Source of the DNA: Acidithrix ferrooxidans
GTDB taxonomy: Bacteria; Actinomycetota; Acidimicrobiia; Acidimicrobiales; Acidimicrobiaceae
Reading direction: 5' to 3'
Assembly (NCBI RefSeq): GCF_000949295.1
Contig: NZ_JXYS01000018.1
Location: forward strand, 62,001 to 126,000
DNA: 64,000 nucleotides
Both the position numbers and the translations under genes were made by a program. Every line of letters starts with the position of its first letter. Position 1 is the first letter of the stretch. The notes beneath the pieces are model-generated. The model was not told the DNA's origin. It ran no database searches and saw only the letters and a list, made by a program, of their open reading frames with translations. Positions 14,299 to 45,181 of the stretch are shown here, one piece after another.

Positions 14299-15243
14299 TC
14301 AGCCTTTGGCGGCCTGCAAAAGGTGATAAAGCAGGTACAGCTGTGCGATCGCTAATGGTTCGCTACGCTTCTCATCTGTAATTCGTCCCAGCGAACTTGG
14401 AAGAGGCTGGTCGATCCCTAGCCTCGACCAGATCGCCTCTTTTATTTCGCTCGCTACTTCTTTGGATGCATGACCATGTATGTGAAGCACGTCAACTGGC
14501 TTATTGTCATCGTCGCGCATCAGCTTTAGATGTATAGCCTCTCTCGTATCGGATGAGAGTAGGTCAGAGATAGCTGGGTGGTCAATCGTTGGCCTAAGAA
14601 GGATTGACACCGACAACGGAATCTCCTCGCCTTCGCCAGGTGAAGCCTTGGCGAAGCTCATGACGATATCTGCATTGGCTCGTTGCGGGCGGATATATGC
14701 GCCAGACTCCGGCTCACGCTTATCAAGATCTGCTAGAACCTGCTCTTTTGTATAACCACGTTGAGATACGTCGCGTTGTACCTTCCACTCACGTCGAACG
14801 CTCTCTGGGGGGTCCAAGAAGACCGTTACATCAAAGCAAGCCCTCGACAACTTAGACCAAAGGGGAAATAGGCCCTCTACAACGACAAAGTCCTTAGGTT
14901 CAAACAAAACTGGACGATCCAGAGTCCCGTGATGGTGGCTATAGAGTGGCTTTAGGATTGGTTGACCCGTTGCGAGCAGTTGCAGATGCTGCTCCATGAT
15001 CTCCAAATAGTTGCAATTAGGGTGCAGCGGAGTAAAGGGAAGATTCTTCCGTTCATTTCGGTCGTAACGATGATAGTCATCGGTACAAAATGAAGATATG
15101 TTAGCCGGGCCGAGCGCCTCGACAAGGCCCCGAGTCAGGGTTGTCTTGCCGACCGCCGAATCTCCAGCGATTGCCAACATGGGTACGTGTCGGCGTAAAC
15201 GATTTCGGTTAGCCCGTTCAATCATCGCAAGTCGATGCGGCAT
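14299..15243 (-). CDS. prk: phosphoribulokinase
   Basis: This 314-residue kinase makes ribulose-1,5-bisphosphate from ribulose-5-phosphate and ATP, the committed step before RuBisCO. The P-loop is AIAGDSAVGKTTLTRG (about residues 24-39), then FCTDDYHRYDR with the catalytic aspartate, PLYSHHHGTL and the Walker B-like VVVEGLFPLW. SCF-type bacterial PRKs share this layout. It is the last gene of the minus-strand Calvin set, after the transketolase-bisphosphatase fusion, and separated from it by a hairpin, so it may have its own promoter. Confidence 0.95.
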   Translation of the reverse strand: MPHRLAMIERANRNRLRRHVPMLAIAGDSAVGKTTLTRGLVEALGPANISSFCTDDYHRYDRNERKNLPFTPLHPNCNYLEIMEQHLQLLATGQPILKPLYSHHHGTLDRPVLFEPKDFVVVEGLFPLWSKLSRACFDVTVFLDPPESVRREWKVQRDVSQRGYTKEQVLADLDKREPESGAYIRPQRANADIVMSFAKASPGEGEEIPLSVSILLRPTIDHPAISDLLSSDTREAIHLKLMRDDDNKPVDVLHIHGHASKEVASEIKEAIWSRLGIDQPLPSSLGRITDEKRSEPLAIAQLYLLYHLLQAAKG

Positions 15244-15292
15244 TGGTGCCCTTTCGTTATTGTACTAGTTCATTTTGGATACAAAAATCTAA

Positions 15293-15331
15293 AGGGCCCT
15301 AAAAAAGATTCTAAAATCTTCCTAGGGCCCT
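15293..15331 (-). terminator. hairpin after the transketolase-bisphosphatase gene
   Basis: On the minus strand AGGGCCCTA pairs with TAGGGCCCT (arms 15323-15331 and 15293-15301), and the interior AAGATT/AATCTT pair extends it. A short T-rich stretch follows. It lies about 40 bases after the fusion gene's stop and before prk, so it is either a terminator or an attenuator between them. Confidence 0.6.
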
Positions 15332-15371
15332 GAAATATAGAGTCCTAACTTCAAATCTGGGAATTTACAAC

Positions 15372-18305
15372 CTAGGCAAATTGCGATACGACGGAATAGC
15401 TCCCATTTCGAATCAAAGCGCTAGATATGTAGAGGGATCCGTCTCGATAGGTGACGGGTTCCAATACGCCAGCTCCAGTTACAGAGGTTATGGCCACAAC
15501 TGGCTCTGCTAAAATCAAGGCATCTTGATCAAAGACATTGTCGATAATTGAAGCGTCAAAAGAAATTATCTGAGCTCGCTCAGCGTCACTCTGGGGGGTC
15601 AATTGACCTTGGAATTCACCGCCTAGGGCCTTGGTCATAGCTGCCATAATGATGCCCTCTGGTGCTCCACCAATCCCAAAGAGTGCATCGATATGACCGA
15701 CAAGAACCTCGAACGCTCCCATCACATCGCCATCTGGGATTTCACGAACCCTGGCTCCAATTTTACGAATACGCGAGATAAGCTCCTTATGGCGAGGCTT
15801 GTCAAGTACAACTATCTCAATCTCACCGATCGACTTATCCAAGACCTTTGCCAGAGCTTCAACGTTAGATTCAATCGAATTCGAAAGAGTAAGAGCACCC
15901 TTGGCTCGAGAGCCAACGACCATCTTGTCCATGTAATATCCAGGTAGATACTTGAAGGTGCCCCTCGGAGCTGCAGCAATTACAGAGACCGCACCTGGCT
16001 GGCCTTTTGCCACGTAATTTGTACCCTCAAGCGGGTCTACCGCAATGTCAAAGGTAGGTCCAGCTCCACTTCCTAAGCGCTCTCCGCGATAGAGCATTGG
16101 AGCCTCGTCCTTTTCTCCTTCACCAATTACGACTTCAAGTGCAATTGGAGCCTTGTTAAGAGCTCTTCGCATAGCCCCCACTGCCAATGAATCAGCAGAG
16201 TTGCGATCGCCCCTGCCAACTTTTGAGAAACTAGCCTTGGCGGCGTCGACGCAGGCTAGAACAATATTGCGCTCTAGGACTAGATTTGCATTTAGGTACT
16301 CTAGGTCGTGGCTATCTTTTTTGGTCGACTCAATTCTTGACAAAGTTTCACGGAACGATTGCGCAACCTTTTCGCCCGAAAAACCAAAGTGGGCTTGGAC
16401 TTCTGAGCCTTTACCGGAGGCGCCGTATGAATGCATAGCGATTATGTCTGCTTCGCTAGCCACAACTGGCTCCCAGCCAAGAGGAATGCCTGCCTCTACG
16501 ACAAGCGTGGGAAGTCCCGAAGTTAGAGCCTCGATTCTCCCTCGATAGACGTCCAAGAATCGCTCGCGCCACATTACCGAGACCACGCGCACCGAGATAC
16601 CGTCATTTTGCTTCAAGATCTCTGCGGCCTCTAGGGCAATTACCACTTCAGATCCGCTCGAGATGATTACCCCTCTGGCATCTTGAGGGTCGGAGATTAT
16701 CTGCATTCCAGAGTCCTTGACCCAAGCTGGATCACCATGTGTAGTAACGGTTGGAAGACCTTGTCGAGAAAGCACTAATACAGATGGCATCGAAGGGTCC
16801 CCAATGGAGGTTGCCCAGGCTGCAGCTGTCTCATTTGCATCCGCTGGACGCATTACACGAAGGTTTGGGATAGCCCTTAGAGCTGCTAGATGTTCAACCG
16901 GCTCATGTGTTGGGCCGTCTTCTCCGACTGCAATGGAATCATGGGTGAATACGAAATTGACGCCCAAGCCCATAATGGCTGCTAGGCGCACAGACGGACG
17001 ACAATAGTCGGAAAAGACCAGAAAAGTTGATCCATAAGCCACAAAGCCACCATGAAGTGCAATCCCGTTTAGGAGTGCAGCCATCCCATGCTCACGAATT
17101 CCAAAGTTAATCTCTCTGCCTAGATAATTAGACGATGAGACAAAGTCCAGACCAAGGTTTGTACCAGTCGACTCGGCCAAGTCAGCAGAGCCGCCAATAA
17201 GGAAAGGTAGAGCTTCGCTCAACTGGATCAAGACCTCTTTGGAGGATATTCTCGTAGCCAATGCCTTATCTGGACTAAATGGTTTGATTGACCCAGCGAT
17301 CTCACCTGGAGAAGGCACTACTGGAGAGATTATTTGACGCACCTCATTAGATAGCTCTTTATAACGTTCTCTCCATGCAGCCGCAAGCTTTTCGCCCTTT
17401 TGCACGCTAGAGCGGGCGTGGTCATAGATCGCTTGCGGCACTTCAAAGGGAGGATAGGTCCACTTGTAAAACTCTTTAGTGCCCGCGATCTCCTTAGCGC
17501 CTAAGGCCGATCCATGTACCGAGCTCTTACCCGCCTTGGTAGGAGCGCCATATCCAATTACCGTCCGCAGTTCAATCAGTGTCGGTCCGCCCGTGTTTTC
17601 GCGAGCCTTATTGAACGCTGATTCGATAAGATCGAGATCCTCATGATCTTCTACCAAAATGGTATTCCAACCATAGCTTTCGAAACGACCTCGAATATTA
17701 TCTGTGCAGGACAGTGTGGCATCGCCTGTAATCGTTATATTGTTGGAGTCAAACAATACAATCAGCTTATTCAAACCTAGATGACCAGCCAAAGAGCCTG
17801 CTTCGTGAGAGATGCCCTCCATGAGGTCGCCGTCTGAAGCAAAGACGTAAGTGTGATGGTCTATTACTCCTTTAGCTCCTGCGGCATCAACTCGGCTCGC
17901 CATCATAGCTTCGGCAAGGGCCATACCAACGGCGCTAGAGATCCCTTGACCCAGCGGACCGGTCGTCATTTCAACGCCAGTTGTGTGATGGTATTCGGGG
18001 TGTCCTGGTGTCTTTGAACCCAATTGACGAAAGCCCTGGAGGTCTTGGACCTCAAGTCCATAGCCAAAAAGGTGCAAGAGCGAGTAGACGAGTGCCGATC
18101 CATGGCCAGCCGAGAGTACGAATCGATCGCGATCGGCCCAGGTTGGATCAGATGGTGCATGCTTTAGCACCCGAGAAAACAAAGTATATGCGGCAGGTGC
18201 AAGTCCCAGAGGAAGGCCCGGATGGCCCGAATTAGCGTGCTCCACCTGATCTATCGAAAGCATCCTTAGCGCGGTTACGCAAAGTTGATCATTGTCGTTT
18301 GTCAT
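15372..18305 (-). CDS. transketolase fused to class II fructose-1,6-/sedoheptulose-1,7-bisphosphatase
   Basis: A 977-residue fusion. Residues about 1-657 are a complete transketolase: SGHPGLPLG, TPGHPEY, the thiamine diphosphate motif ASDGDLMEGI through DSNN (about 156-189), catalytic glutamate in FGIREHG (E405) and the C-terminal domain. Residues about 673-977 are a complete GlpX-type phosphatase: VGRGDRNSAD, VVIGEGEKDEAPMLYRGE, DPLEGTN and GGAPEG, which supply the metal ligands. The EGTN form resembles the dual-function FBPase/SBPase of cyanobacteria rather than the DPIDGT of E. coli GlpX. No stop or start lies between the halves. Both activities serve ribulose-bisphosphate regeneration. 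Neighbours rpe and prk support this. Confidence 0.93.
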   Translation of the reverse strand: MTNDNDQLCVTALRMLSIDQVEHANSGHPGLPLGLAPAAYTLFSRVLKHAPSDPTWADRDRFVLSAGHGSALVYSLLHLFGYGLEVQDLQGFRQLGSKTPGHPEYHHTTGVEMTTGPLGQGISSAVGMALAEAMMASRVDAAGAKGVIDHHTYVFASDGDLMEGISHEAGSLAGHLGLNKLIVLFDSNNITITGDATLSCTDNIRGRFESYGWNTILVEDHEDLDLIESAFNKARENTGGPTLIELRTVIGYGAPTKAGKSSVHGSALGAKEIAGTKEFYKWTYPPFEVPQAIYDHARSSVQKGEKLAAAWRERYKELSNEVRQIISPVVPSPGEIAGSIKPFSPDKALATRISSKEVLIQLSEALPFLIGGSADLAESTGTNLGLDFVSSSNYLGREINFGIREHGMAALLNGIALHGGFVAYGSTFLVFSDYCRPSVRLAAIMGLGVNFVFTHDSIAVGEDGPTHEPVEHLAALRAIPNLRVMRPADANETAAAWATSIGDPSMPSVLVLSRQGLPTVTTHGDPAWVKDSGMQIISDPQDARGVIISSGSEVVIALEAAEILKQNDGISVRVVSVMWRERFLDVYRGRIEALTSGLPTLVVEAGIPLGWEPVVASEADIIAMHSYGASGKGSEVQAHFGFSGEKVAQSFRETLSRIESTKKDSHDLEYLNANLVLERNIVLACVDAAKASFSKVGRGDRNSADSLAVGAMRRALNKAPIALEVVIGEGEKDEAPMLYRGERLGSGAGPTFDIAVDPLEGTNYVAKGQPGAVSVIAAAPRGTFKYLPGYYMDKMVVGSRAKGALTLSNSIESNVEALAKVLDKSIGEIEIVVLDKPRHKELISRIRKIGARVREIPDGDVMGAFEVLVGHIDALFGIGGAPEGIIMAAMTKALGGEFQGQLTPQSDAERAQIISFDASIIDNVFDQDALILAEPVVAITSVTGAGVLEPVTYRDGSLYISSALIRNGSYSVVSQFA

Positions 18306-18370: not shown

Positions 18371-19066
18371 TTAGGCTTTTCGTTTGGCTTGACCTGCTAA
18401 ATTGCGAATTTCAGTCACTGCGGCCTCAAGGCCGTCGGGATGTTTAAAGAGAGAAGAGCCAGCAACCAATGTTCTTGCGCCCGCACTCACAGCACCCTCA
18501 ACGGTAGAGGAGGAGATTCCCCCATCAACCTCAATTTCAATTTCATGACTAAACGAGTTTGCCAATTCATAGGCTGAGCTAATCTTTGACTCCATCGTCG
18601 AAATGTAGGCCTGGCCACCAAAGCCAGGATTAACCGTCATAATCAGGATTAGATCTAACAAATCCACGACATTCTCTATGGCACAGATAGGGGTTGCCGG
18701 GTTCAGTGCCACGCCGACCTTAGCCCCAGCTTGTCTCACGCGACCCAGAGTCCGATGAAGATGTCGAGTTGACTCAGCATGAATGATAAGCAGCTCACAG
18801 CCTGCCGCTACATATTTTTCGATATATTGATCTGGATCAACAATCATAAGATGAGCCTCAAAACCAAGAGTCGTAACTTTTCGCGCCGACGCTATGGTAT
18901 CTGGACCAAATGTAAGATTTGGTACAAAGACACCATCCATAACGTCCCATTGAATTCGATCCACACCCGCTTTTTCCAACTCCACAACCGCATTACCTAG
19001 TTGTGAAAAGTCAGCAGGTAGCACCGAAGGGATTACCAAAATATTCTGCTTTACACCCATCGTCAA
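18371..19066 (-). CDS. rpe: ribulose-phosphate 3-epimerase
   Basis: This 231-residue TIM-barrel enzyme interconverts xylulose-5-phosphate and ribulose-5-phosphate. Signatures are IPSVLPADFSQLG, IQWDVMDGVFVPNLTFGP, the histidine in FEAHLMIVDP, MTVNPGFGGQ and IEVDGGISS. Metal-binding histidines and aspartates are all present. It precedes the transketolase-bisphosphatase gene by 65 bases on the same strand, so the two are probably co-transcribed. Confidence 0.95.
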   Translation of the reverse strand: MTMGVKQNILVIPSVLPADFSQLGNAVVELEKAGVDRIQWDVMDGVFVPNLTFGPDTIASARKVTTLGFEAHLMIVDPDQYIEKYVAAGCELLIIHAESTRHLHRTLGRVRQAGAKVGVALNPATPICAIENVVDLLDLILIMTVNPGFGGQAYISTMESKISSAYELANSFSHEIEIEVDGGISSSTVEGAVSAGARTLVAGSSLFKHPDGLEAAVTEIRNLAGQAKRKA

Positions 19067-19366: not shown

Positions 19367-20068
19367 ATGGGACCAACAGACGTGGAACAAGATAACGACA
19401 CTAAAGATGCAATGACAGAGATGATCTCGGTCCTTTTAGTCGACGATCAAGACATCATTCTGGATGGAATCAGTTCAATGATGAAGCGATTCGAGAATCA
19501 GATCAAAATTGTGGGCAAGGTTAAGGATGCACAAAGCGCTATCGCCTTTGTCACTACAAACCAATTAGACATCGTAATCACCGACGTACGTCTCAAAAAC
19601 GACAGCGGCATCGATCTCTGCAGGGAAATCTCCAAGTCATTTCCTGATGTTTCGGTCGTCATGCTAACTGTCTACGATGACGAGCAGTATCTATTTCAAG
19701 CCCTACGATCTGGAGCAAAAGGGTTTCTTCTCAAACAGATCACCGCTGCTGAACTGCTAGAGCAACTCCTACGGGTACAAAACGGTGATATCGTCGTCGA
19801 TCCTCAGCTAGCGGGCAGGGTTGCACTATCTGCGGCACGTCTTCACTCGGGTGAATTCTGGCCAGGAGCACACCTAGGGTTAACGCAAAGGGAGTCAGAG
19901 GTCCTTGACCTTGTGACCAAGGGAAACTCAAACAAGGCAATCGCAGCGAAGCTCTTCGTTGGAGAAGAGACAGTCAAGACCCACCTGAGCGCGGTCTATC
20001 GCAAACTCGGCGTCAAAGATAGGACTGCAGCTGTAGCACTTGCAATGCGCGAAGCAATCTTTAGATAA
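19367..20068 (+). CDS. NarL/FixJ-family response regulator
   Basis: A 233-residue two-domain regulator. The receiver domain has the acidic pair in LLVDDQD, the phosphoacceptor aspartate in IVITDVRLKNDSG, the threonine in VVMLTVYDD and the lysine in FLLKQITAAE. The C-terminal LuxR-type helix-turn-helix is LTQRESEVLDLVTKGNSNKAIAAKLFVGEETVKTH (split here for reading as one domain). The start may be the ATG at 19367 or an internal one nearer the receiver domain. It is followed after 69 bases by its likely kinase and sits between rpe and cbbX, on the opposite strand. Confidence 0.92.
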   Translation: MGPTDVEQDNDTKDAMTEMISVLLVDDQDIILDGISSMMKRFENQIKIVGKVKDAQSAIAFVTTNQLDIVITDVRLKNDSGIDLCREISKSFPDVSVVMLTVYDDEQYLFQALRSGAKGFLLKQITAAELLEQLLRVQNGDIVVDPQLAGRVALSAARLHSGEFWPGAHLGLTQRESEVLDLVTKGNSNKAIAAKLFVGEETVKTHLSAVYRKLGVKDRTAAVALAMREAIFR

Positions 20069-20137
20069 CAATAATGCAAAAGCCCCTTTTGAAAGGGATA
20101 AGGGAAATCCCAAAATGATGAGTCTTTGGAGTTCACA

Positions 20138-21289
20138 TTGAAAGATCACTTGCTTCGTCAAATTATTGACGCAATGCCACACGTCACAGATCTAGAAGAG
20201 CTAGCAGATCACGTTGCTGAACTTGTGATAGGGGCTTTCGGTGCAGACGTATGCTTCGTCTATCTCCTAGACGAGGACCAAAGACATATCAGTCTGATTG
20301 GCGCGACACCTCCTTATTCGATCCATAGGGGCAAGATTCGCCTAGCCGTTGGAGATGGTATCTCGGGATGGGTCGCTCAATCCAAGATACCTTTAATTGT
20401 TCCGGACAAATGGGCGGACAGTAGATACCGTTATATGCCTGAACTGGAGGGGGAAAACTTCAATTTCCTGATCTCGGTGCCGATGATGAGACCTGGTGAG
20501 GTAGTAGTTGGCGTCCTAAATGTCCATTGGCGCGAATTGCCAAGCGAGAGCGAATCGATCTTGGTGGACCTGCAATATGTCGCCAACCTATTTGCCGGCA
20601 ACGTCGAAATGGCCGCCCTCGTTGAAAAACTTGCCCGACGCGAGAGTCAACTTGAAAAATTCGCAGCCGACACTATCGATGCAGCGGAGTTAGAGCGAAA
20701 GCGAATCGCAAGAGATATTCATGATGGCCTTGGACAACTCCTACACTCGGCACTCTACCATCTAGATGCTGCAATGTATCCAGAATCGATGAACGCCTCA
20801 CGTATAGAGATAACTGCGGCCAAAGATCTCGTCGTCTCGGCCATCTCAGAGGTAAAAGAGACAATATCGCGACTTCGACCAGGAATCCTAGATGACCTTG
20901 GTCTTATGGCGGGCTTAGCAAGTCTTTGCAATTCGATAAAAAACCCCGAAGTTGACGTCGAACTTCCCGAGGTATTCGATGCGATCCTCTCTAGCGCAGC
21001 CGAGATCACCATCTACCGAATTACCCAAGAAGCGCTGGCAAACATCATCAAACACTCCGGAGCAACTTGGGCATCGCTGAAGATTTGGCTCGACTACGAA
21101 CTTCGGATTCTGCATGCGATTATCTCCGACGATGGAGCGGGGTTCGATGTCGACGATGTCAATAACGGCCACGGAATTCAAGGTATGAGGGAAAGAGTTG
21201 AGCTGATCGGAGCAAGCCTCGAGGTATTTTCACGCGCAAACCATGGTACAAAGATCCACCTCAAAGTACCATTCTCCCTAAATCAATAG
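20138..21289 (+). CDS. GAF-domain sensor histidine kinase (NarX/DesK type)
   Basis: A cytoplasmic kinase of about 383 residues with no membrane segment. Residues about 15-165 form a GAF sensor domain; the HisKA_3 dimerisation domain has the phosphoacceptor histidine in RIARDIHDGLGQ; the ATPase domain shows ITQEALANIIKHSG, DDGAGFD and GHGIQGMRERVELIG. A TTG at 20126 is in frame, but the TTG at 20138 has GGAG six bases upstream. It pairs with the upstream NarL-type regulator. A soluble GAF domain suggests sensing of an internal signal such as a gas, redox state or small molecule; the ligand is unknown. Confidence 0.9.
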   Translation: MKDHLLRQIIDAMPHVTDLEELADHVAELVIGAFGADVCFVYLLDEDQRHISLIGATPPYSIHRGKIRLAVGDGISGWVAQSKIPLIVPDKWADSRYRYMPELEGENFNFLISVPMMRPGEVVVGVLNVHWRELPSESESILVDLQYVANLFAGNVEMAALVEKLARRESQLEKFAADTIDAAELERKRIARDIHDGLGQLLHSALYHLDAAMYPESMNASRIEITAAKDLVVSAISEVKETISRLRPGILDDLGLMAGLASLCNSIKNPEVDVELPEVFDAILSSAAEITIYRITQEALANIIKHSGATWASLKIWLDYELRILHAIISDDGAGFDVDDVNNGHGIQGMRERVELIGASLEVFSRANHGTKIHLKVPFSLNQ

Positions 21290-21384: not shown

Positions 21385-22326
21385 TCAATCTTTAGGTCCA
21401 GGCTCCAAAAATATTCTACTGGCCAAGAAGTCAACATCTTCGATAGTCATTAGGTCTAACCGGGTAAGGCGATCTCCTCGACGTTCAAACAACCTATTCG
21501 CCTGTCGAAGTCGGGCTCTATCCAGAGCGTTCCGGATCGATCGTGCATTTGCAAAGAATGGCTGCTCCATCCGCCGTTGTACATATTGTTCAAAGACGGC
21601 TTCGGCTTTCCCGCTCATTACGTAGTTCTGCTCAGCTAACATCAACTTAGCGATTGTCACAAGCTCCGTCTTGGTGTAATCAGGGAAGTCGATATGGTGT
21701 GCAATCCGAGATGACATCCCAGGATTACTAGTGAAAAACTTGTCCATGCGATCTTTATAACCAGCCAAGATCACGACAAGATCGTCCCTTTGGTTCTCCA
21801 TAACCTGTAGAAGAATCTCGATCGCTTCGCCACCATAGTCGCGCTCGTTCTCCGGCTTGTAGAGATAGTAGGCCTCATCGATAAAGAGCACTCCCCCCAT
21901 CGCCTTCTTGAGAATCTCCTTGGTCTTAGGCGCCGTATGGCCGATATATTGACCCACTAAGTCGTCGCGAGTAACCGAGACCAAATGACCTTGTCGTACA
22001 TATCCAAGACGATGCAGTATCTCTGCCATGCGCAAAGCCACAGTCGTCTTACCGGTGCCAGGATTTCCCGTAAAGCTCATATGCATCGAGGGTGCGCCAG
22101 AGGAAAGATCCAACTGACGACGCACTCGATCGACCAGCAAAAGTGAAGCTACCTCGCCAATTCGCGTCTTAACCGGTTTCAAACCAACGAGTTCTTTATC
22201 GAGCTTCTCCAAGATACTTGCGATATTCGACTCTTTGTATACCACATCCAAATCAACGAAATCATCTGCCGTGCCCAGAGAGAGGTTGTCTTCGTCGTCA
22301 CTTACATTAGCGCCAAGGTCATCCAT
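21385..22326 (-). CDS. cbbX: red-type RuBisCO activase, AAA+ protein CbbX
   Basis: This 313-residue hexameric AAA+ protein removes inhibitory sugar phosphates from red-type RuBisCO by pulling on the large-subunit C-terminus. Walker A is [13 protein letters not shown], the pore loop is [14 protein letters not shown], Walker B is [12 protein letters not shown], and sensor/arginine-finger residues lie in [17 protein letters not shown]. It is the third gene after cbbL and cbbS on the same strand, behind a 243-base gap, and proves the RuBisCO is of the red lineage. Confidence 0.96.
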
Positions 22327-22569: not shown

Positions 22570-23007
22570 CTATGGATACCTTTCACCCTCTGGTTGATCC
22601 GTGGCATAAGGGGTGATCGAGTATCTAATCGATCGACCATCGACCTCTTGTCGCTGCAGTCTGAACCCTGGCTCGTTGGGTGGGCGATTCACCATAAATG
22701 ACATAGTTGGGCTCTCCGTGCCTCGATCTGAACCAAATGCCATAACACGGATGTAATAGTTAGGAAAGGTCGCCCGGCACTGATTGATCTCCCCCATAAT
22801 GCCAGCTGGGTCCTTTAGGTCAAACATTGGCATACCATACATCTCCCAGTAGGTATTACGGGGATGGGGGTCGTCGGTATACTCCACGCTAAGCGCCCAA
22901 CCGTGGTCAATAGCCCACTTTATCTGTAGCATTATCTGCTCGTCGCTAAGTTCTGGAAGAAACGAGAATTGACCCTGAGTCACTCGATTTGCTGGATTGG
23001 TCATCAT
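22570..23007 (-). CDS. cbbS: RuBisCO small subunit, red type
   Basis: A 145-residue small subunit. GQFSFLPELSDEQIMLQIKWAIDHGWALSVEYTDD (one continuous helix-strand region) and YWEMYGMPMFDLKDP are family hallmarks, and the C-terminal extension after FMVNRPPNEPGF is typical of red-type (form IC/ID) subunits, where it forms a hairpin lining the central channel. It lies 21 bases after cbbL in the same operon. Confidence 0.96.
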   Translation of the reverse strand: MMTNPANRVTQGQFSFLPELSDEQIMLQIKWAIDHGWALSVEYTDDPHPRNTYWEMYGMPMFDLKDPAGIMGEINQCRATFPNYYIRVMAFGSDRGTESPTMSFMVNRPPNEPGFRLQRQEVDGRSIRYSITPYATDQPEGERYP

Positions 23008-23028: not shown

Positions 23029-24748
<1,720 letters not shown>

Positions 24749-25660
24749 ATGACCTTCAATCAACTTCGAACCCTTGTAGCAGTCGTTCAAAACGGGTCGA
24801 TTACCGGCGCCGCAGACGAACTCTACCTCTCTCAATCTGCAGTCTCTTCTTCTATTTATGCCTTGCGCGACGAACTTGGAATTGAACTTTTCTCTAAATC
24901 TGGACGAAACATCGAACCTACACCCGCATGTTTAGTTCTATACAAGCAAGCCAAGGTGATCTTAGGCATGGCGGAGAAGGCAAAGATTGAGGCTATCGCC
25001 ACGTCAGACACTAAGAAAAGGATACTTAGAATGGCCTCAGTCACCACTGCAGGCGAGGCGTTGCTACCTCGGTGGATACGGTCATATATAGATTCACAAA
25101 GCGACGTTGAAATTCGCAGTCATGTTGAAAACCGTTCCCGAGTATTCGAATTGCTCGAATCTCACTCGGTAGACCTCGTTATTGCGGGACGTCCACCGCT
25201 TGGAATGGCCTTCAAAACCCTAGCCGTTCGCCCGCATAAGCTGATGCTTGTGGCATCTGCAAATTCCGAGATTGCCAAAATCTATGAAGCTGGAGGTGAC
25301 GTCACCTCCCTCTTAGCTCGATCTACCTGGCTCATGAGAGAGGAAAAGTCGGGCACACGCAAAAGTCTCGAAGAGTTGCTTGACCTCCTGGCAATATCGC
25401 CTCGTATGCTGACGATCGGATCCAACGTGGCACTGCGAGAAGCTGTAGCCCTTGATATAGGTGTGACTTTATTGTCCTCAGATACGGTCAGTACTCAACT
25501 TGAAATGGGTATTTTGAAGGAAATTAACGTCCCTCCATTGCCAATTGTAAAACAATGGCATATTACCTCCCGGGACGAAGATGGAGTTCAAGCAGAGATT
25601 GCGGCCAACTTTGCCAACCACCTCATCGAGCACAAATTCGTCTCCGCCTTGCCCTCTTAG
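24749..25660 (+). CDS. cbbR: LysR-family regulator, probable CbbR
   Basis: A 303-residue LysR protein. The N-terminal winged helix is FNQLRTLVAVVQNGSITGAADELYLSQSAVSSSIYALRDELG (one domain), followed by a periplasmic-binding-like effector domain with DLVIAGRPPLGMAF, typical of CbbR. Its divergent position next to cbbL makes control of the RuBisCO operon very likely; effectors of known CbbR proteins include ribulose bisphosphate, NADPH and phosphoenolpyruvate. Confidence 0.88.
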   Translation: MTFNQLRTLVAVVQNGSITGAADELYLSQSAVSSSIYALRDELGIELFSKSGRNIEPTPACLVLYKQAKVILGMAEKAKIEAIATSDTKKRILRMASVTTAGEALLPRWIRSYIDSQSDVEIRSHVENRSRVFELLESHSVDLVIAGRPPLGMAFKTLAVRPHKLMLVASANSEIAKIYEAGGDVTSLLARSTWLMREEKSGTRKSLEELLDLLAISPRMLTIGSNVALREAVALDIGVTLLSSDTVSTQLEMGILKEINVPPLPIVKQWHITSRDEDGVQAEIAANFANHLIEHKFVSALPS

Positions 25661-31021: not shown

Positions 31022-32665
31022 CTAGACCTTGATACCAAGTCCCGCCTCCTTGGCGTGATAAGACGACCTAGTATTTGGCGAAGATTCGACGTGTCGGATC
31101 CCCAATGCTTCCCCATATGATTTCAACTCGGCGAATTCTTTGGGCGTATACCACTTCGAAACTGGAAGGTGCTTTCTGGTCGGTCTCAAATATTGCCCAA
31201 TAGTTACAATCGAGACTCCAACGCTAGCCAAATCCCTAAGGGTCGCCTTGAGCTCATCCATCGTCTCGCCCATCCCTACGATAATCCCTGATTTAGTAAC
31301 CAAACCAGCCTTTACGGCACCTGAGAGAACCGACAAACTGCGCGCGTAGCTCGCTTGGGGTCGCACAGCCCGCTGGAGACGAAGAACGGTCTCAATATTG
31401 TGATTCAATACATCGGGAGCTGCCTTATAGATGGCACTTAGAGCGTCTTCGTCGCCCTTGCAGTCAGAGATCAAAACCTCGACCCCGATATCTCGACCAA
31501 GTCGTCGAATCTGGTTTATCGTCTCAACAAAACCAATTGCTCCCCCGTCACTAAGATCATCCCTAGCCACGGCAGTAACGACGGCAAAATCAAGGCCCAT
31601 CTTTTCAACGGCCAAAGCAACCCTTCGGGGTTCGTCAAGATCGAGCGGTAGCGGCCGATCGGTCTTGACGAGGCAAAATCCACATGCTCGAGTACAGTCT
31701 TCGCCATTGATCATGAACGTCGCGGTCCCTTGACTCCAACATTCATAAATATTGGGACAACCGGCCTCCTCGCAGACAGTTACCAGATTTAGGCCCCTCA
31801 TGGTTTCCTTGAGTTCCTGATACTCCGAACCCATCTTGGTCCGAAGTTTAATCCATTCAGGTTTGGTCTTTGAAATCGAAATTCCCTCTGCGGTCCCAAC
31901 GCCAGCGCTCGCCAGTCTTCTATCTAGAGAGCGAGACTCCGCCATGGCATCAACCTTGGGTGCCACCTTAATGATTGAATCCACCAAGTTTGGATCTTGC
32001 ATTGAATAGCCATCAGACGAAGAAGCTCCGTAGAAAGATGCCTCAGAAAAACCAAAGATTTTAGGCGCCAAAGATGCCACCACGCCAACAACGTCTTCCA
32101 CTTGACAGACACTACCCTCGGCTTGCATCGAGGTAACCCCGTATTCGCTGATACCACACGGAACAATGTTAGAAAACATCTCCAAATCTGTAGTTACGTT
32201 CAACGCGAAGCCATGCATCGAACGTCCCCTAGAGATTCGAACCCCGATAGCCGCAATCTTTCTGAGACTACCATCCTTAGAGATCGTCCATACACCCGGA
32301 AAGCCAGGGTTTCGCTGTCCTACAATTGAAAATTTATCTAGAGTTGCGATTATCAAATCTTCAATCTTCGCGACAAAATTAGGGGTTGAATTTTGCTCCG
32401 TAGCTACATCTAAAATTGTATAGCCAACGAGCTGACCCGGGCCATGGTAGGTGACGTCTCCGCCCCTGTCAACCCTAACCATTTCAGCCCCAACTTGTTT
32501 GGGGTCTACAAGAATATTGGAGATATCAGCCCTAACGCCCAGGGTATAGACGTGATTATGCTCCAACAGTAGTAGATGCTGAGCTTTCCCAGAGTCAAAT
32601 AAGCCGTGTTGAAGGGTATAAGCATCCCGATAAGCCACCTTCGACAACCAACGAACCTCTAACAT
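31022..32665 (-). CDS. octanoyltransferase-lipoyl synthase fusion (LipB-LipA)
   Basis: A 547-residue bifunctional protein. Residues 1-215 are LipB, moving octanoate from acyl carrier protein to the E2 lysine: RGGDVTYHGPGQLVGY (67-82), catalytic lysine in RKIAAIGV (K136) and cysteine in NIVPCGIS (C170). Residues about 265-547 are LipA, a radical SAM enzyme inserting two sulfurs: auxiliary cluster cysteines C298, C303, C309 in CEEAGCPNIYEC, radical SAM cysteines C324, C328, C331 in CTRACGFC, and RSSYHA (533-538). A linker of about 50 residues joins them. All catalytic residues are present. The adjacent E2 and E3 genes give its substrate. Confidence 0.95.
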   Translation of the reverse strand: MLEVRWLSKVAYRDAYTLQHGLFDSGKAQHLLLLEHNHVYTLGVRADISNILVDPKQVGAEMVRVDRGGDVTYHGPGQLVGYTILDVATEQNSTPNFVAKIEDLIIATLDKFSIVGQRNPGFPGVWTISKDGSLRKIAAIGVRISRGRSMHGFALNVTTDLEMFSNIVPCGISEYGVTSMQAEGSVCQVEDVVGVVASLAPKIFGFSEASFYGASSSDGYSMQDPNLVDSIIKVAPKVDAMAESRSLDRRLASAGVGTAEGISISKTKPEWIKLRTKMGSEYQELKETMRGLNLVTVCEEAGCPNIYECWSQGTATFMINGEDCTRACGFCLVKTDRPLPLDLDEPRRVALAVEKMGLDFAVVTAVARDDLSDGGAIGFVETINQIRRLGRDIGVEVLISDCKGDEDALSAIYKAAPDVLNHNIETVLRLQRAVRPQASYARSLSVLSGAVKAGLVTKSGIIVGMGETMDELKATLRDLASVGVSIVTIGQYLRPTRKHLPVSKWYTPKEFAELKSYGEALGIRHVESSPNTRSSYHAKEAGLGIKV

Positions 32666-32807: not shown

Positions 32808-33866
32808 TTAGAACTCTTGAGCCCAATTCCAAGTCTCAATGATCTCTTTCATTCGCGCTAGATATGCAGCCGCGTAGGCTCCATCAATTACCCTATGGTC
32901 AAAGGTAAGCGCAAGAATGCCAACCGAGTGAATCGCTATGCTCTCAGATCCATCTGGAAGGGTAATCACTACGGGTTTACGCTTGACACCATCGGTTGAG
33001 AGAATTGCTACTTGTGGCTGATTGATGATCGGAGCCGTCATAAAGGTACCATAGGGACCAGGGTTGGTGATTGTAAAAGTACCACCAGCCAAATCATCAG
33101 CACTCAATCTCTTAGTTCGAGCTCGAGTCGCCAAATCTTTGATATCTCTAGCTAGCCCTGTAAGTCTCTTTTGATCAGCTCCATGAATAACTGGCGCTAT
33201 CAGACCCTCAAGATCAAGATCTACCGCTATTGAAAGATTCCGATCATGATGGACGATCAGTTCATCATCGCCCACAGATGCATTCAACCGAGGAAAGGTG
33301 CGCAATGCCTCCACTGTCGCCCTTGCGACAAAAGGAAGATAGGTTAGAGAGAATCCCTCTTCTCGCTTGAAGGCCTCCTTGAGCGATGCACGAACTCGAT
33401 CTACCGCTTCGAAGTCAACCTCGATAGCAACTAACGTGTGAGCAGATGTGGCCTTAGATCGAACCATATGCTCTGCTGTGCGTCGTCGAATATTATTAAA
33501 CGGAATAATCTCATCTCGAGCTCCAGCGGTAGCAGGCGGGAAAACGTCAGCATGAATTGGCTGGCGATTTACGATCTGAGGTACCTGAGAAATAGTCTCC
33601 GGAAGACGCGGCGCTGGAGCTGGTGCAGCTACCCAAGCCGGTGCAGCCGGTGCAGCCGGTGCAGCCGGTGCAGCCGGTGCAGCCGGTGCAGCCGGAGCTG
33701 ATTGCGACCGAGCGACTTGATCCAAATAGTCCAGAACGTCAGATCTAGTAATTCGACCTCCTGCACCAGATCCCTTGATAAGCGAAACGTCCAATGAATT
33801 TTCATCAATCAAGCGTCGCACAACTGGAGAGAGAACCAATCCCTCGACATTTCCTAGCACGGCCAC
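32808..33866 (-). CDS. 2-oxoacid dehydrogenase E2 acyltransferase, binding and catalytic part (downstream of a frameshift)
   Basis: This ORF of 352 residues is the C-terminal two thirds of an E2 protein. It has a peripheral subunit-binding domain (LSPVVRRLIDENSLDVSLIKGSGAGGRITRSDVLDYL, about residues 11-49), an Ala-Pro linker with AAP repeats, and a catalytic domain ending in LTFDHRVIDGAYAAAYLARMKE, where the DHRxxDG motif holds the catalytic histidine. It lacks the lipoyl domain, which lies in the overlapping upstream frame. Restoring one base in the upstream linker joins them. The acyl group (succinyl, acetyl or branched) is not decided. Confidence 0.85.
   Translation of the reverse strand: MAVLGNVEGLVLSPVVRRLIDENSLDVSLIKGSGAGGRITRSDVLDYLDQVARSQSAPAAPAAPAAPAAPAAPAAPAWVAAPAPAPRLPETISQVPQIVNRQPIHADVFPPATAGARDEIIPFNNIRRRTAEHMVRSKATSAHTLVAIEVDFEAVDRVRASLKEAFKREEGFSLTYLPFVARATVEALRTFPRLNASVGDDELIVHHDRNLSIAVDLDLEGLIAPVIHGADQKRLTGLARDIKDLATRARTKRLSADDLAGGTFTITNPGPYGTFMTAPIINQPQVAILSTDGVKRKPVVITLPDGSESIAIHSVGILALTFDHRVIDGAYAAAYLARMKEIIETWNWAQEF
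33637..33699. repeat. 9-bp tandem repeat encoding an Ala-Ala-Pro linker
   Basis: GCCGGTGCA is repeated six times exactly (33637-33690) and followed by a degenerate copy, GCCGGAGCT (33691-33699). On the coding (minus) strand it encodes alternating Ala and Pro of the second E2 linker. Being a multiple of three it can change in length without breaking the frame. Confidence 0.85.
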
Positions 33867-34201
33867 AGGAGCTGGGGCTGGGGCTGGGCTGGGGCTGGAG
33901 CCGGAGCTGGAGCAGGAGCCGGAGCCGGAGCTGGAGCAGGAGCCGGAGCTGGAGCAGGAGCCTCGCTGGATTCTCCAACGATTGCCAAAATAGTTCCTAC
34001 CGCTACGGTGTCTCCCTCTTCAGCCAAGATCGAAGTTAGATAACCGCTGGCCGTAGATGGTACTTCCGAATCGACTTTATCTGTCGAAACCTCAAAGAGC
34101 ACCTCGTCGATGGCAATTTTATCACCAACTTTTTTTAGCCACTTTGTAATTGTGCCTTCTGTAACTGTTTCGCCAAGCTGTGGCATTAAGATCTCAGCCA
34201 A
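33854..34201 (-). CDS. 2-oxoacid dehydrogenase E2, lipoyl domain part (frameshifted)
   Basis: A 115-residue ORF holding the E2 lipoyl domain: MAEILMPQLGETVTEGTITKW at the start, the lipoylated lysine in VSTDKVDSEVPS, and an Ala-Pro linker. The linker turns into QPQPQLLWPC and stops. In the next frame the sequence continues APAPVAVLGNVEGL into the E2 core ORF. The cause is one five-base unit (33886-33890) among six-base units on the plus strand. It is either a true frameshift mutation, slippage-controlled, or a sequencing error. It overlaps the E3 stop by eight bases. Confidence 0.8.
   Translation of the reverse strand: MAEILMPQLGETVTEGTITKWLKKVGDKIAIDEVLFEVSTDKVDSEVPSTASGYLTSILAEEGDTVAVGTILAIVGESSEAPAPAPAPAPAPAPAPAPAPAPAPAQPQPQLLWPC
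33868..33963. repeat. 6-bp tandem repeats in the first E2 linker, site of the frameshift
   Basis: Units GGAGCT, GGGGCT and GGAGCC repeat about 16 times on the plus strand, encoding Pro-Ala pairs on the minus strand. One unit at 33886-33890 has only five bases (GGGCT), and this single missing base separates the lipoyl and catalytic ORFs. Confidence 0.85.
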
Positions 34202-41787: not shown

Positions 41788-44703
41788 CTAAATCCCTAGT
41801 GTTGAATTCGACCTTCGTCCAATGGAGCTAAGACGCTGATTTCGCACCTTAAATCTTGAACTATTATGCATGTAATCATCGGCTAAATCCTCCTCCATTT
41901 TTTCTTCATTATATCTAATTTGCATCGTCAATAAGCGACGTGAATTTTTTAGCATTCTCTGTGTGCTATGCGAATATTGGTGAGTTTGTTTTCCCTCATC
42001 GTTGAGCGAATGTTCAACCAAGCTAAGGATCTTATCAAGACGAACGCCGGTACGACTCTGGTCATCAAGCATCTTATTGCCATCAAAATCGTCGTCAATA
42101 AGTGGTATAGCTGCTTTAGATAAGATCACATCGTGAAGACGATGATTCATTTCGATGAGCATTTCATCTCTAATAATAAACCCATTGCTGCCATCCGTAT
42201 CACCAGACAGAGCGATCCTGGCATGGTTAATTTCGAATAGGTCTCCGATGCTCAACTCCTTATGATTCGGCTTTGACGACCAGGCCACAAGATTTTGACT
42301 ATCATTTGGCAACAAATTGACAGTTGTAATTCCTTCATTAAAGCCTTTCGCACGCGGAAGATAGCCGCTTTTAGAAAAGACTCCAACGCCACTAAGTATC
42401 CTTCTTGACATCAGCTCACTATCTCGACTAGGGATCGACTTGGAGATGGGATCGGTGAGATAATAGCGCTGGCCATCGCCGGTGGCTTCTCGCAATTCAT
42501 AATTAGAATCAGAATGCTCCAGCCCCGCTTGACTATCGATAGTCTGACTAAGATCACTGTTCCTGGAGTACATCCGTTGTAAGTCTGAGTGCGTAAAGTA
42601 CCCCAATGTGGCATATCCCGGAGGCATAGCACATTCTTTTGTTTTAGCTTCTTGGCTATAAGAATGAACCGAGCAGACCTCTTGGTAGGACAGAAGAGGC
42701 TCATTCGCAGAGTGATTTTTGATCTGACGCACCAGCGATGCGCTCTCCAAGTGGTCGTGGTCTCCCATCTCTTGAATCTTTTGCCAGGTCAACTTGGATA
42801 AGGTATCCAAGTTGTATCTATTTCCTACTTCAATGACCTTTGGTAACGGCGCAGATCTACCTCTCTCCGAGGCAACGATAGTGTTGTCGTAGACATAGCC
42901 AGCAACCCTTGTCGAAGTCTCTTCGACGAGGGCGCCAAGACTAGGATAATAGACGACCGATGAACCACCTATTTCAAAGTTGAGAGCGACCGCTTTCGAA
43001 TTTAGCATTCGATGGTGCGACTTTGATAGCTCCAAAGTGTTGTCATCCATCGAATTGGCATCCATCTGGCTCAAAAAACGTCGCCAATTCGATCCCCTAC
43101 CTATGCTAAGTCCCGAGAGCTCACTCGAGCGACGCTGGTCCACTTGCAGGATCGTTAGTTGTGATCCCTTATCGATCGCATCGAAGATCGCCTCCAAGTG
43201 TCCCGGCTCAATTCTTGTCGAGAGCAATAAAGTCCCCCTCTTTATCACCTCAAGATCATCAACCCCGATCCTTCTTATACAGGAGACGACTTGCTCACCG
43301 AGGATCTTTGGACCTACTCCAAAGTCATCCTCAAATGAATAAATTGTCATCGACGACGCTTTGGCTTCTCGTAACGCGTTATCTAGGGTTATCACACCGG
43401 CTGCATCACCTTGAAGTGGAATAAAAGACCATTTCCGCACTTCATTAGAAGGATCTAAGCCAGATGAAATGGCACCATTTAGCGCCTTTGCGTCATATAT
43501 ACGAGCGCTCACCGGTAGGCCACCATGATTTTGGCCAACTTCCAAAATGGAATCTCCGATCTCCATCTTCTTATCTAAGGTAAAAGAAGAAAAGGTATCT
43601 CGAGAGCGTGCAATAAAGGTTTGATCTGAATACCTTGGGATATGGAAGTCGAAGATATAGCTAAGCTCAGAAGCTTTTTGGATCTCCAATTCGCCCTTTC
43701 TGTAGAAGAACTTTCCCATCAACGACGTCATGTCCAAACCGTCCCGGGTAATTCGACCGTCTATCCGGGAGATGACATCGTCAATATCACTTTGGAAATA
43801 ACCCCTCGGTGGAGAAATCTTTGGCATCTCCATGGAGAAAAAGTTCTTTTGTCGAATTATGCCGAGCTGAGCCGTGGCAGCATTCTTCCAGTTATCCACC
43901 ATCAGATCGAACGAGATCTCGGGGGGCTTCTCGTTCTTTGTGGCAAATGCCGCAACCTTTCGAGCCGATCTCGAACGAAATCCACGCTGCGTCGAATAAG
44001 TATCTATTTGATTTGAGCGTCCCGAAAAGATCCCCGACGTAGCCAATAGCTTGGAATCGACAACCAATCTATCAAAATCCACTCGTTGCAAATCAAGGCT
44101 AGGATCTCGGCTCAGAGCACTCTCAAAGGTACTCAAATAAAGCACCTCCAGAGAGTCGGATGCATATTGAATGCCATCTGCCATCAAAGCTCTAGGGGTA
44201 CCACTTGAATCTAGAGCGGAGTTTGCAATCAAAAGGTGCGAATGCAGGTGTGGATCGCACGACCTTGAGATCAAATGCACAAAGTCAATGCCACACCCCT
44301 TGACCTGTTCGTAGGATTGTACTCCTTGAACGGTCCGCTTTATATAGAGATAGTTAGCGGTGATCTCCTGGAAGACAGTGGCAACCGCGCTCCTATGCGC
44401 ACTTATGAGTGCACCCTGCGTGGTAAGATCCGAGATCCCCAGCGCCACAGAAGTCCACTTTGGGGCCGGAACTATCACCTCGAAGGCCTTATATTTTCTT
44501 CGATCTAGCTTCGGATCATGCCATCCGATTGAAAAATTGCCTTCACTTTCAAAAATTGAGTTGGGCACTTTCGATAGACCGTGACCCACCATAGCCGTAG
44601 GTTCCAAACAAATAGATCCAGCGCCTGTTGTAGAGAGGGCACGGCTTTCCCTCTCAAAATATCCAAAGTCACAAGCAGCCCGACCCGAAACGATAATTGG
44701 CAT
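41788..44703 (-). CDS. MobF/TrwC-type relaxase homologue with a degenerate helicase region
   Basis: A 971-residue protein. Residues 1-290 match the TrwC/TraI relaxase domain, which cuts one strand at an origin of transfer: catalytic tyrosine in FGYFERES (Y15), VIVPAPKWTSVAL, and metal histidines H143, H154 and H156 in FVHLISRSCDPHLHSH. Residues about 425-545 align by layout with the SF1 helicase half, but the Walker A place reads GDAAGVIT instead of GxAGTGKT, and DEA and GDxxQL are lost. The rest (550-971) is unrecognised. No coupling protein, secretion genes or oriT are nearby. The ATG at 44703 is preferred over TTG at 44751 because GGGGTGG precedes it. Confidence 0.75.
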   Translation of the reverse strand: MPIIVSGRAACDFGYFERESRALSTTGAGSICLEPTAMVGHGLSKVPNSIFESEGNFSIGWHDPKLDRRKYKAFEVIVPAPKWTSVALGISDLTTQGALISAHRSAVATVFQEITANYLYIKRTVQGVQSYEQVKGCGIDFVHLISRSCDPHLHSHLLIANSALDSSGTPRALMADGIQYASDSLEVLYLSTFESALSRDPSLDLQRVDFDRLVVDSKLLATSGIFSGRSNQIDTYSTQRGFRSRSARKVAAFATKNEKPPEISFDLMVDNWKNAATAQLGIIRQKNFFSMEMPKISPPRGYFQSDIDDVISRIDGRITRDGLDMTSLMGKFFYRKGELEIQKASELSYIFDFHIPRYSDQTFIARSRDTFSSFTLDKKMEIGDSILEVGQNHGGLPVSARIYDAKALNGAISSGLDPSNEVRKWSFIPLQGDAAGVITLDNALREAKASSMTIYSFEDDFGVGPKILGEQVVSCIRRIGVDDLEVIKRGTLLLSTRIEPGHLEAIFDAIDKGSQLTILQVDQRRSSELSGLSIGRGSNWRRFLSQMDANSMDDNTLELSKSHHRMLNSKAVALNFEIGGSSVVYYPSLGALVEETSTRVAGYVYDNTIVASERGRSAPLPKVIEVGNRYNLDTLSKLTWQKIQEMGDHDHLESASLVRQIKNHSANEPLLSYQEVCSVHSYSQEAKTKECAMPPGYATLGYFTHSDLQRMYSRNSDLSQTIDSQAGLEHSDSNYELREATGDGQRYYLTDPISKSIPSRDSELMSRRILSGVGVFSKSGYLPRAKGFNEGITTVNLLPNDSQNLVAWSSKPNHKELSIGDLFEINHARIALSGDTDGSNGFIIRDEMLIEMNHRLHDVILSKAAIPLIDDDFDGNKMLDDQSRTGVRLDKILSLVEHSLNDEGKQTHQYSHSTQRMLKNSRRLLTMQIRYNEEKMEEDLADDYMHNSSRFKVRNQRLSSIGRRSNSTLGI

Positions 44704-45181
44704 CAAAACCACCCCGCACGAATAACGATCGTTACCTTGGGCAATTGCCAATTATCTAACAAATAAGGACTTCAATAGGCCATAGGGCGTATGAATATCT
44801 AGTGGTTTTTCCAGGAGCGTTTTAGTCTCAATGGCCGTTAAATCAAAGCCGCCATCTCGATAATACAACACAAGCCGACTCGAAAATCCAAAGGAGCCAA
44901 AGTCTTAACATCTATACAAATAAACCAAATGGGATCTTCAATAGAGCCAACGCACAATCTGACAACGTCGCACACGAAAAGCTAAACCACAAGCGTACCC
45001 TAAGCCAAGCCCGAGATATGTAATTTAAAATAGAGATTATCCACAAAAGCCCACTCAGAGCCGATTCGCTTACAACTCCTACCAGAAGACAAAAGGCCCC
45101 AACCGCGAGATGCCCTAGCGGTTGGTTAGCCTCCGGCTCATTTGAATTGAGGTGCCTACCACGAACACAGATCGATCTAAG
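44704..45181. other. gene-free region upstream of the relaxase homologue
   Basis: No gene is supported. I looked for an origin-of-transfer-like inverted repeat near the relaxase start and saw none. The only clear structure is the terminator at 45099-45125. Confidence 0.5.
45099..45125 (-). terminator. terminator after the DUF6295 gene
   Basis: On the minus strand CCAACCGC pairs with GCGGTTGG across an 11-base loop and is followed by GGCCTTTTG. It lies about 55 bases after the DUF6295 stop. Confidence 0.65.

Follow-up and report, generated by a model that had tools for sequence, protein, structure and literature searches.

In bacterial Calvin cycles, fructose/sedoheptulose bisphosphatase (F/SBPase) catalyzes two irreversible steps and transketolase (TKT) works near equilibrium (excerpt of PMC10507043). 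A genome survey of the cycle groups the genes for fructose-1,6-bisphosphatase (FBPase), aldolase, and TKT into a conserved operon; its main text contains neither 'fused' nor 'fusion' (PMC7895386). The nearest reported transketolase fusion that we found joins a thaumarchaeal ribulose-phosphate 3-epimerase (Rpe) with an N-terminal part of TKT (excerpt of PMC11237513). Here we analyze a gene of Acidithrix ferrooxidans, an acidophilic iron oxidizer of the family Acidimicrobiaceae, that encodes a whole TKT and a whole class II FBPase (GlpX) in one protein, TKT::GlpX. The gene lies in a stretch of 64,000 nucleotides, hereafter the window (assembly GCF_000949295.1, contig NZ_JXYS01000018.1, positions 62,001 to 126,000). 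An earlier note, made from the sequence of the window, suggested that the arrangement may be unreported; in line with this, no description of a TKT::GlpX fusion was found in the open-licence literature, which is weak evidence of absence. Both enzymes are known, and it is their union, distribution, and later separation that appear new. The gene and its parts are located in the window as follows.

15372..18305, minus strand: TKT::GlpX fusion gene, 977 amino acids, ATG start.
16341..18305, minus strand: TKT half, residues 1-655, with the thiamine diphosphate (ThDP), pyrimidine, and C-terminal domains, from profiles and structure alignment.
16299..16340, minus strand: linker region, residues about 656-669, from the end of the TKT profile and the structure model.
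15375..16298, minus strand: class II FBPase (GlpX) half, residues about 670-977, from profiles, residues, and structure alignment.

The uninterrupted 977-codon frame with a full TKT and a full GlpX, as read in the earlier note, is borne out by open reading frame (ORF) calling, Pfam, NCBIfam, and structure comparison; the plus-strand frame over 15372-18305 contains many stops. Pfam places Transketolase_N at residues 6-321 (E 1.5e-129), Transket_pyr at 348-518, and the TK C-terminal domain at 533-642, so the three transketolase domains are present in order and at full length. They are followed at 680-969 by FBPase_glpX (PF03320; E 1.1e-97, 327 bits against a cut-off of 27), which covers positions 6-297 of 307 in the profile, nearly its full length. 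Among the NCBIfam models, TIGR00232 (transketolase) scores 746.5 bits against a cut-off of 682.25, and TIGR00330 (glpX) scores 257.7 bits, narrowly below its cut-off of 259.3. Of six fusions scanned, all pass TIGR00232 and five (that of the window and four of the five others) stay below TIGR00330; their scores place the GlpX half just outside the named equivalog, as a close relative of it. Since the glpX model mostly falls below its cut-off and the TKT model always exceeds it, annotation would tend to name a transketolase only, which makes the fusion easy to overlook in automatic annotation.

Active-site residues are present in both halves. The window protein has TKT motifs at residues 26, 67, 100, 116, 158, 186, 263, 372, 400, 455, and 513, including what we take to be the ThDP motif and the catalytic glutamate and histidine positions. 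The earlier reading of an active-site E405 and of a thiamine motif near 156-189 agrees with the location of E405 inside NFGIREHG, which begins at 400, and of the ThDP motif at 158-192. For GlpX, we assume that the metal-binding and catalytic positions of the E. coli enzyme are D33, E57, D61, D85, E88, T90, Y119, R166, D188, and E213. The window protein has D705, E729, D733, D757, E760, T762, Y791, R838, D860, and E883 there, so the metal-ligand motifs are complete, as had been noted, with R701 at the position of K29. These positions are conserved in all 25 tabulated fused rows (of which L203 and L205 are fragments), and the K29 position is occupied by R in genera g1 and g2. The metal motif DPLEGTN (about 757-763) had been likened to that of the cyanobacterial dual FBPase/sedoheptulose-1,7-bisphosphatase (SBPase). 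Its L and N do set the fused type (with T or A replacing N in g2) apart from the housekeeping GlpX of the family, which has DPI[ED]GT[TR]; the likeness does not extend to proof of SBPase activity, given the tied structure scores described below.

The TKT profile stops at residue 655 and the GlpX structures align from 667-680 onward, which fits the linker placed at 657-672 in the earlier note. In an AlphaFold2 model of the fusion, built from a 38-row alignment (mean predicted local distance difference test score, pLDDT, 83.5; predicted template modelling score, pTM, 0.67), the C-terminal TKT helix extends to 663 and the next helix runs from 666 into GlpX, with residues 664-668 at pLDDT <50. The linkers measure 10-22 residues and differ between genera. 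TTG655 is the sole ATG, GTG, or TTG codon between codons 640 and 706, and the 20 bases preceding it contain no Shine-Dalgarno-like stretch. The TKT half aligns with TKT structures at Z 37-39 and root-mean-square deviation (rmsd) about 3 over 600-640 residues (for instance, 8cip_A: Z 39.1, rmsd 3.1, 633 aligned, model 4-657), and the GlpX half aligns with the Mycobacterium tuberculosis FBPase 7txb_A at Z 42.6 and rmsd 1.5 (296 aligned, model 679-977). The Z-scores of the GlpX half are tied between FBPase-only structures (7txb 42.6, 3d1r 42.3) and dual FBPase/SBPase structures (3roj 41.6, 5a5l 42.1); thus, fold and sequence give no discrimination for SBPase activity. Low-confidence loops at 95-100, 191-199, 251-264, 377-389, and 457-466 overlap or border the TKT active-site motifs, as would be expected when a dimeric enzyme is modelled as a monomer. 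A viral structure library gave a single match under E 0.001, a thiamine pyrophosphate enzyme at TMq 0.23, and none that is relevant.

A search of 42 genomes of the family with the window fusion protein found the junction within a single open frame in 28, among them 20 essentially full-length fusions (window included), the others being cut by contig ends. The halves are neighbouring ORFs in three genomes (G399, G402, and G403), and the fusion was not seen in 11, namely nine genomes of genus g6, G418, and G419, whose TKT piece sits at the edge of a contig. Apart from the window protein, the essentially full-length fusions number 19 and share 46-65% identity with it. The fusion therefore characterizes most genera of the family and not a single genome; the earlier note was right in reading a fusion, and the search for both-domain proteins in relatives that it had recommended has supplied them. 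One carrier, G014, is a single-contig genome of 2,158,157 bases, which we take as Acidimicrobium ferrooxidans, a species described as autotrophic (excerpt of PMC3035218).

Ten genomes were scanned with Transketolase_N. In G014, G358, G414, G415, and G420 no match other than the fusion (420-439 bits) is of transketolase strength, so its TKT half must work there; the next matches, which score 33.9-41.7 bits, lie in frames about 920 amino acids long that look like pyruvate dehydrogenase E1. A second full TKT was found in G332, G360, and G134, a TKT without the fusion in G362, and no match in G395. RuBisCO is encoded in 26 of 31 genomes with fused or split genes and in none of 10 without the fusion (Fisher p 2.7e-6; G419, with its transketolase fragment at a contig end, is left out). 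By its genetic linkage to and co-occurrence with phosphoribulokinase (PRK) and RuBisCO, the fusion belongs among the enzymes of the cbb cluster.

The samples searched, which included no systematic search of other phyla, yielded no fusion beyond the family; the reverse order, GlpX::TKT, is undetectable in the order and phylum searches. In the order (397 genomes), two candidates were scored per genome, among which a true fusion should rank first; among the matches listed, 18 of them family rows, all from outside the family end by residue 674. In the phylum (296 genomes, E <= 1e-185) seven genomes matched and only G000 and G014 reach GlpX. Two of the best 80 of at least 594 matched stretches in a contig scan are fusions, both in family genomes, and all five plasmid records covering at least 80%, among 15 of 718 rows, carry separate genes.

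To follow the history of the two halves, trees were built from domain matches of at least 560 (TKT) or 220 (GlpX) residues, with identical rows used once (TKT, 65 rows; GlpX, 81 of 146 rows). In the TKT tree all fused and split rows form one clade (100/98), within which the split rows are sister to the window's gene (98/95) inside genus g1 (100/100). An ancestral split state in G399, G402, and G403 is rejected on TKT: grouping the 27 fused-genome rows without the split rows costs 132 log-likelihood units (p-AU, approximately unbiased test, 1e-6). In the GlpX tree the fused and split rows are likewise joined (100/97), apart from 53 stand-alone rows. The best trees differ in the split placement, which in GlpX is sister to all fused g1 rows (100/99) on a long branch (0.69). 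For GlpX, a grouping of the 25 fused rows that leaves out the split ones is not rejected (p-AU 0.093), nor is the TKT-preferred placement beside the window's gene (p-AU 0.285); this half agrees with a later fission but does not decide it. One fusion followed by one fission would be the simplest reading of these trees. At the three split junctions GlpX begins 4, 6, or 9 bases past the TKT stop (mechanically called starts).

Where a ratio of nonsynonymous to synonymous substitution rates (dN/dS) is obtainable (pairs with saturated dS yield none), both halves of the fusion are under purifying selection, with 0.05-0.17 for TKT (five pairs) and 0.05-0.10 for GlpX (three pairs). In the split genomes (loci L163, L164, and L165), the dN of GlpX is 0.27-0.31 and that of TKT 0.048-0.065, a ratio of 4.7-5.6 in three pairs, as against 0.63-1.48 in six fused pairs, some of which share members. 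A replaced phosphatase in these genomes would be another account of the faster change. The split GlpX proteins keep the tabulated residues except in L164, where D186 is replaced by E and P185 by A.

The fusion gene lies between rpe and prk on the same strand, as the earlier note had stated, within a cluster in the order rbcL, rbcS, cbbX, a response regulator/histidine kinase pair on the opposite strand, rpe, TKT::GlpX, and prk. Its neighbours in the window are the following.

14299..15243, minus strand: prk, phosphoribulokinase, downstream of the fusion (NF005655, 365.6 bits against a cut-off of 236).
15270..15345, minus strand: RNA hairpin with a T-rich stretch after it, located between the fusion and prk.
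18371..19066, minus strand: rpe, ribulose-phosphate 3-epimerase, upstream of the fusion (profile match).
19367..21289, plus strand: LuxR-type response regulator and GAF histidine kinase.
21385..22326, minus strand: cbbX, RuBisCO activase (TIGR02880).
22570..23007, minus strand: presumably rbcS, RuBisCO small subunit, so named from its place adjoining rbcL; its homologues adjoin rbcL at other loci.
23029..24507, minus strand: rbcL, RuBisCO large subunit (profile match).
24749..25660, plus strand, divergent: presumed LysR-type regulator, taken to be cbbR-like by its place.

Across the family, prk adjoins the fusion in g1, g2, g3, g4, g5, and g186, and the order rpe-fusion-prk is found in all of these genera except g4; in g2, g5, and g186 the rpe and fusion frames, as mechanically called, overlap by a few bases. 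The rbcL gene is near the fusion in g1, g4, and g5 only. The hairpin has a folding energy of -26.3 kcal/mol (z -3.4; 0 of 200 shuffles as low) and is possibly an attenuator or terminator; promoter and terminator scans gave site numbers not above those of shuffles. The LuxR-type regulator/GAF kinase pair, which also occurs near the fusion in g1, g3, g4, and g5, is a possible regulator of CO2 fixation. In the cbb cluster of G332 a class I fructose-bisphosphate aldolase (L161:13029-14117) stands beside the LysR gene, and none is found at that place in the window. Elsewhere in the window, a minus-strand ORF of 547 amino acids (31022-32665) combines a lipoyl ligase/octanoyltransferase-type domain (LplA-B) with a lipoyl synthase (LIAS_N, radical SAM) in a LipB-LipA-like fusion. 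An E2 acyltransferase on the same strand (32808-34201) extends over two overlapping frames with the break at an Ala-Pro repeat, a frameshift or sequencing error, and a third minus-strand ORF (41788-44751, 987 amino acids) has a TrwC relaxase domain, which hints at a mobile element.

The window genome, a draft of 4,019,867 bases in 183 contigs, is 98% complete; its size and contig number match those published for strain Py-F3 of Acidithrix ferrooxidans (4.02 Mb, 183 contigs, 47.8% GC; PMC4417699). Stand-alone GlpX and TKT genes lie elsewhere, hence the fusion is an extra copy in this genome. Neither a class I FBPase/SBPase nor a phosphofructokinase was matched in it, which leaves the dephosphorylation of fructose and sedoheptulose bisphosphates to GlpX proteins. 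One frame of more than 850 amino acids (L207, contig C117) joins a transaldolase with a domain that we take to be glucose-6-phosphate isomerase, and it shares 4 bases with the end of the frame for the housekeeping transketolase.

Taken together, we propose, with a probability of roughly 0.77, that TKT::GlpX is a bifunctional enzyme of the Calvin-Benson-Bassham (CBB) cycle. The C-terminal class II phosphatase would irreversibly dephosphorylate C1 of fructose 1,6-bisphosphate and, probably, of sedoheptulose 1,7-bisphosphate. The N-terminal transketolase would then use the products, fructose 6-phosphate (F6P) and sedoheptulose 7-phosphate (S7P), as ketose donors, with glyceraldehyde 3-phosphate as the acceptor, to form erythrose 4-phosphate plus xylulose 5-phosphate and ribose 5-phosphate plus xylulose 5-phosphate. 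A single polypeptide would thus perform two consecutive pairs of steps that feed the products of the neighbouring rpe and prk genes, and it may assemble as a TKT homodimer bearing phosphatase domains. Because both phosphatase products, F6P and S7P, are the ketose donors that TKT uses in the Calvin direction, the fusion joins consecutive steps, twice, a tighter link than the neighbouring steps to which the earlier note had pointed; the interconversions are given in an excerpt of PMC3905653. The TKT half is very probably active, FBPase activity of the GlpX half is probable to nearly the same degree, and SBPase activity is reasonably likely; a benefit from fixed stoichiometry, which the earlier note had raised, is a conjecture, and substrate channelling between the halves, raised there too, is doubtful.

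Several observations weigh against this proposal. Five of the 31 genomes with fused or split genes show no RuBisCO (G397, G410, G411, G412, and G413, including three of four g3 genomes, one of them 96% complete). In the stretches read for G014 (g2; RuBisCO 40 kb off), G420 (g186), and G134 (g3; RuBisCO on other contigs), the fusion has only rpe and prk beside it and no RuBisCO, and rpe is not adjacent to the fusion in g4. A second, diverged TKT::GlpX in G406 (L171, contig C8) has no prk, RuBisCO, or other cbb gene in the 17 kb read; among the genes around it are those for a ferric-reductase-like protein, ApbE, an aldo/keto reductase, and a major facilitator superfamily (MFS) transporter. Three transaldolase-family matches in the window genome would permit an SBPase-free route, and the separation of the halves in three genomes means that the covalent link is dispensable. 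Acidithrix ferrooxidans is reported to be unable to fix CO2 (excerpt of PMC12999727), and its genome paper states that CO2 fixation was untested (PMC4417699). No biochemistry of a TKT::GlpX protein was found in the open-licence literature.

Among the rival explanations, the fusion could represent two independent enzymes on one chain, kept neutrally or for the convenience of equal dosage, with no kinetic benefit or channelling. This is compatible with two activities, and we consider it slightly better than an even bet. FBPase, aldolase, and TKT genes often neighbour RuBisCO and Prk (excerpt of PMC7895386), so that loss of a stop codon could create such a fusion; the fission in three genomes and the variable linkers of 10-22 residues point the same way, and in a model enzyme cascade there was evidence of no proximity effect (excerpt of PMC6345930). 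However, the fusion has been retained down to about 47% identity across six genera, and the about fivefold faster change of the phosphatase after the split suggests a covalent constraint, a pattern that a replaced or relaxed phosphatase would also produce. Another reading, in which the fusion is a channelling or flux-control unit of ribulose bisphosphate regeneration, seems unlikely: here the irreversible phosphatase would hand F6P and S7P to the near-equilibrium TKT and so pull the cycle, and the TKT-dimer scaffold would set the oligomeric state of the phosphatase. If this were true, the faster phosphatase drift after fission would be an evolutionary trace of lost coupling.

It is rather less likely than SBPase activity that the phosphatase half acts as an FBPase only, with S7P supplied by transaldolase or by the stand-alone GlpX. 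The window genome has transaldolase-family genes and a second GlpX, the genus of the window has the K29-to-R change, and the structure comparison does not separate FBPase-only from dual enzymes; against this stand the DPLEGTN signature, which distinguishes the fused type from housekeeping GlpX, the location with rpe and prk, and the requirement of the Calvin cycle, under normal circumstances, for SBPase. There is also a precedent in Bacillus methanolicus, whose C1-pathway GlpX paralogue GlpX-P has SBPase activity (excerpt of PMC3905653). Two polypeptides in the cell, arising by internal initiation at the start-like in-frame TTG655 or by proteolysis of the linker at the short stretch of low pLDDT (664-668), are quite improbable in view of the missing Shine-Dalgarno-like sequence, the lack of any other start-like codon between 640 and 706, and the preservation of the fusion in 28 of 42 genomes. 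Finally, the 183-contig draft state of the window genome might suggest an assembly or sequencing artefact, of which there is hardly any chance: the missed stop that the earlier note named as its refutation is ruled out by the open junction in those 28 separate genomes, including the single-contig G014.

A natural protein that couples F/SBPase with TKT would be a ready-made part for carbon-fixation engineering, and the fused and apparently re-split homologues within one family constitute a natural experiment on whether joining alters flux. Compared with known systems, the CBB-cycle enzyme that we propose shares with bacterial transketolases (TIGR00232; PDB 8cip, 2r8o) the three domains and what we take to be the active-site motifs, but bears a whole class II FBPase at its C terminus. 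With class II FBPase GlpX (TIGR00330; PDB 7txb, 3d1r) it shares the fold and the presumed metal and substrate residues, whereas it is fused behind TKT, forms its own clade apart from the 53 stand-alone rows, and scores narrowly below the TIGR00330 cut-off. The cyanobacterial dual FBPase/SBPase (PDB 3roj, 5a5l; Z 41.6 and 42.1) has the same fold and probably the same role, but those structures were solved as single-enzyme chains. The glpX-fba-tkt cluster of Bacillus methanolicus plasmid pBM19 likewise encodes C1-pathway copies of both enzymes together, including GlpX-P with its SBPase activity (from the excerpt cited above); however, the genes there are separate with fba between them, serve the ribulose monophosphate (RuMP) and not the CBB cycle, and are distant in both trees. 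In the thaumarchaeal protein that combines Rpe and an N-terminal Tkt part (excerpt of PMC11237513), a piece of transketolase is similarly united with a neighbouring pathway enzyme, but the partner is an epimerase, the TKT is of the split archaeal kind, and there is no CBB context.

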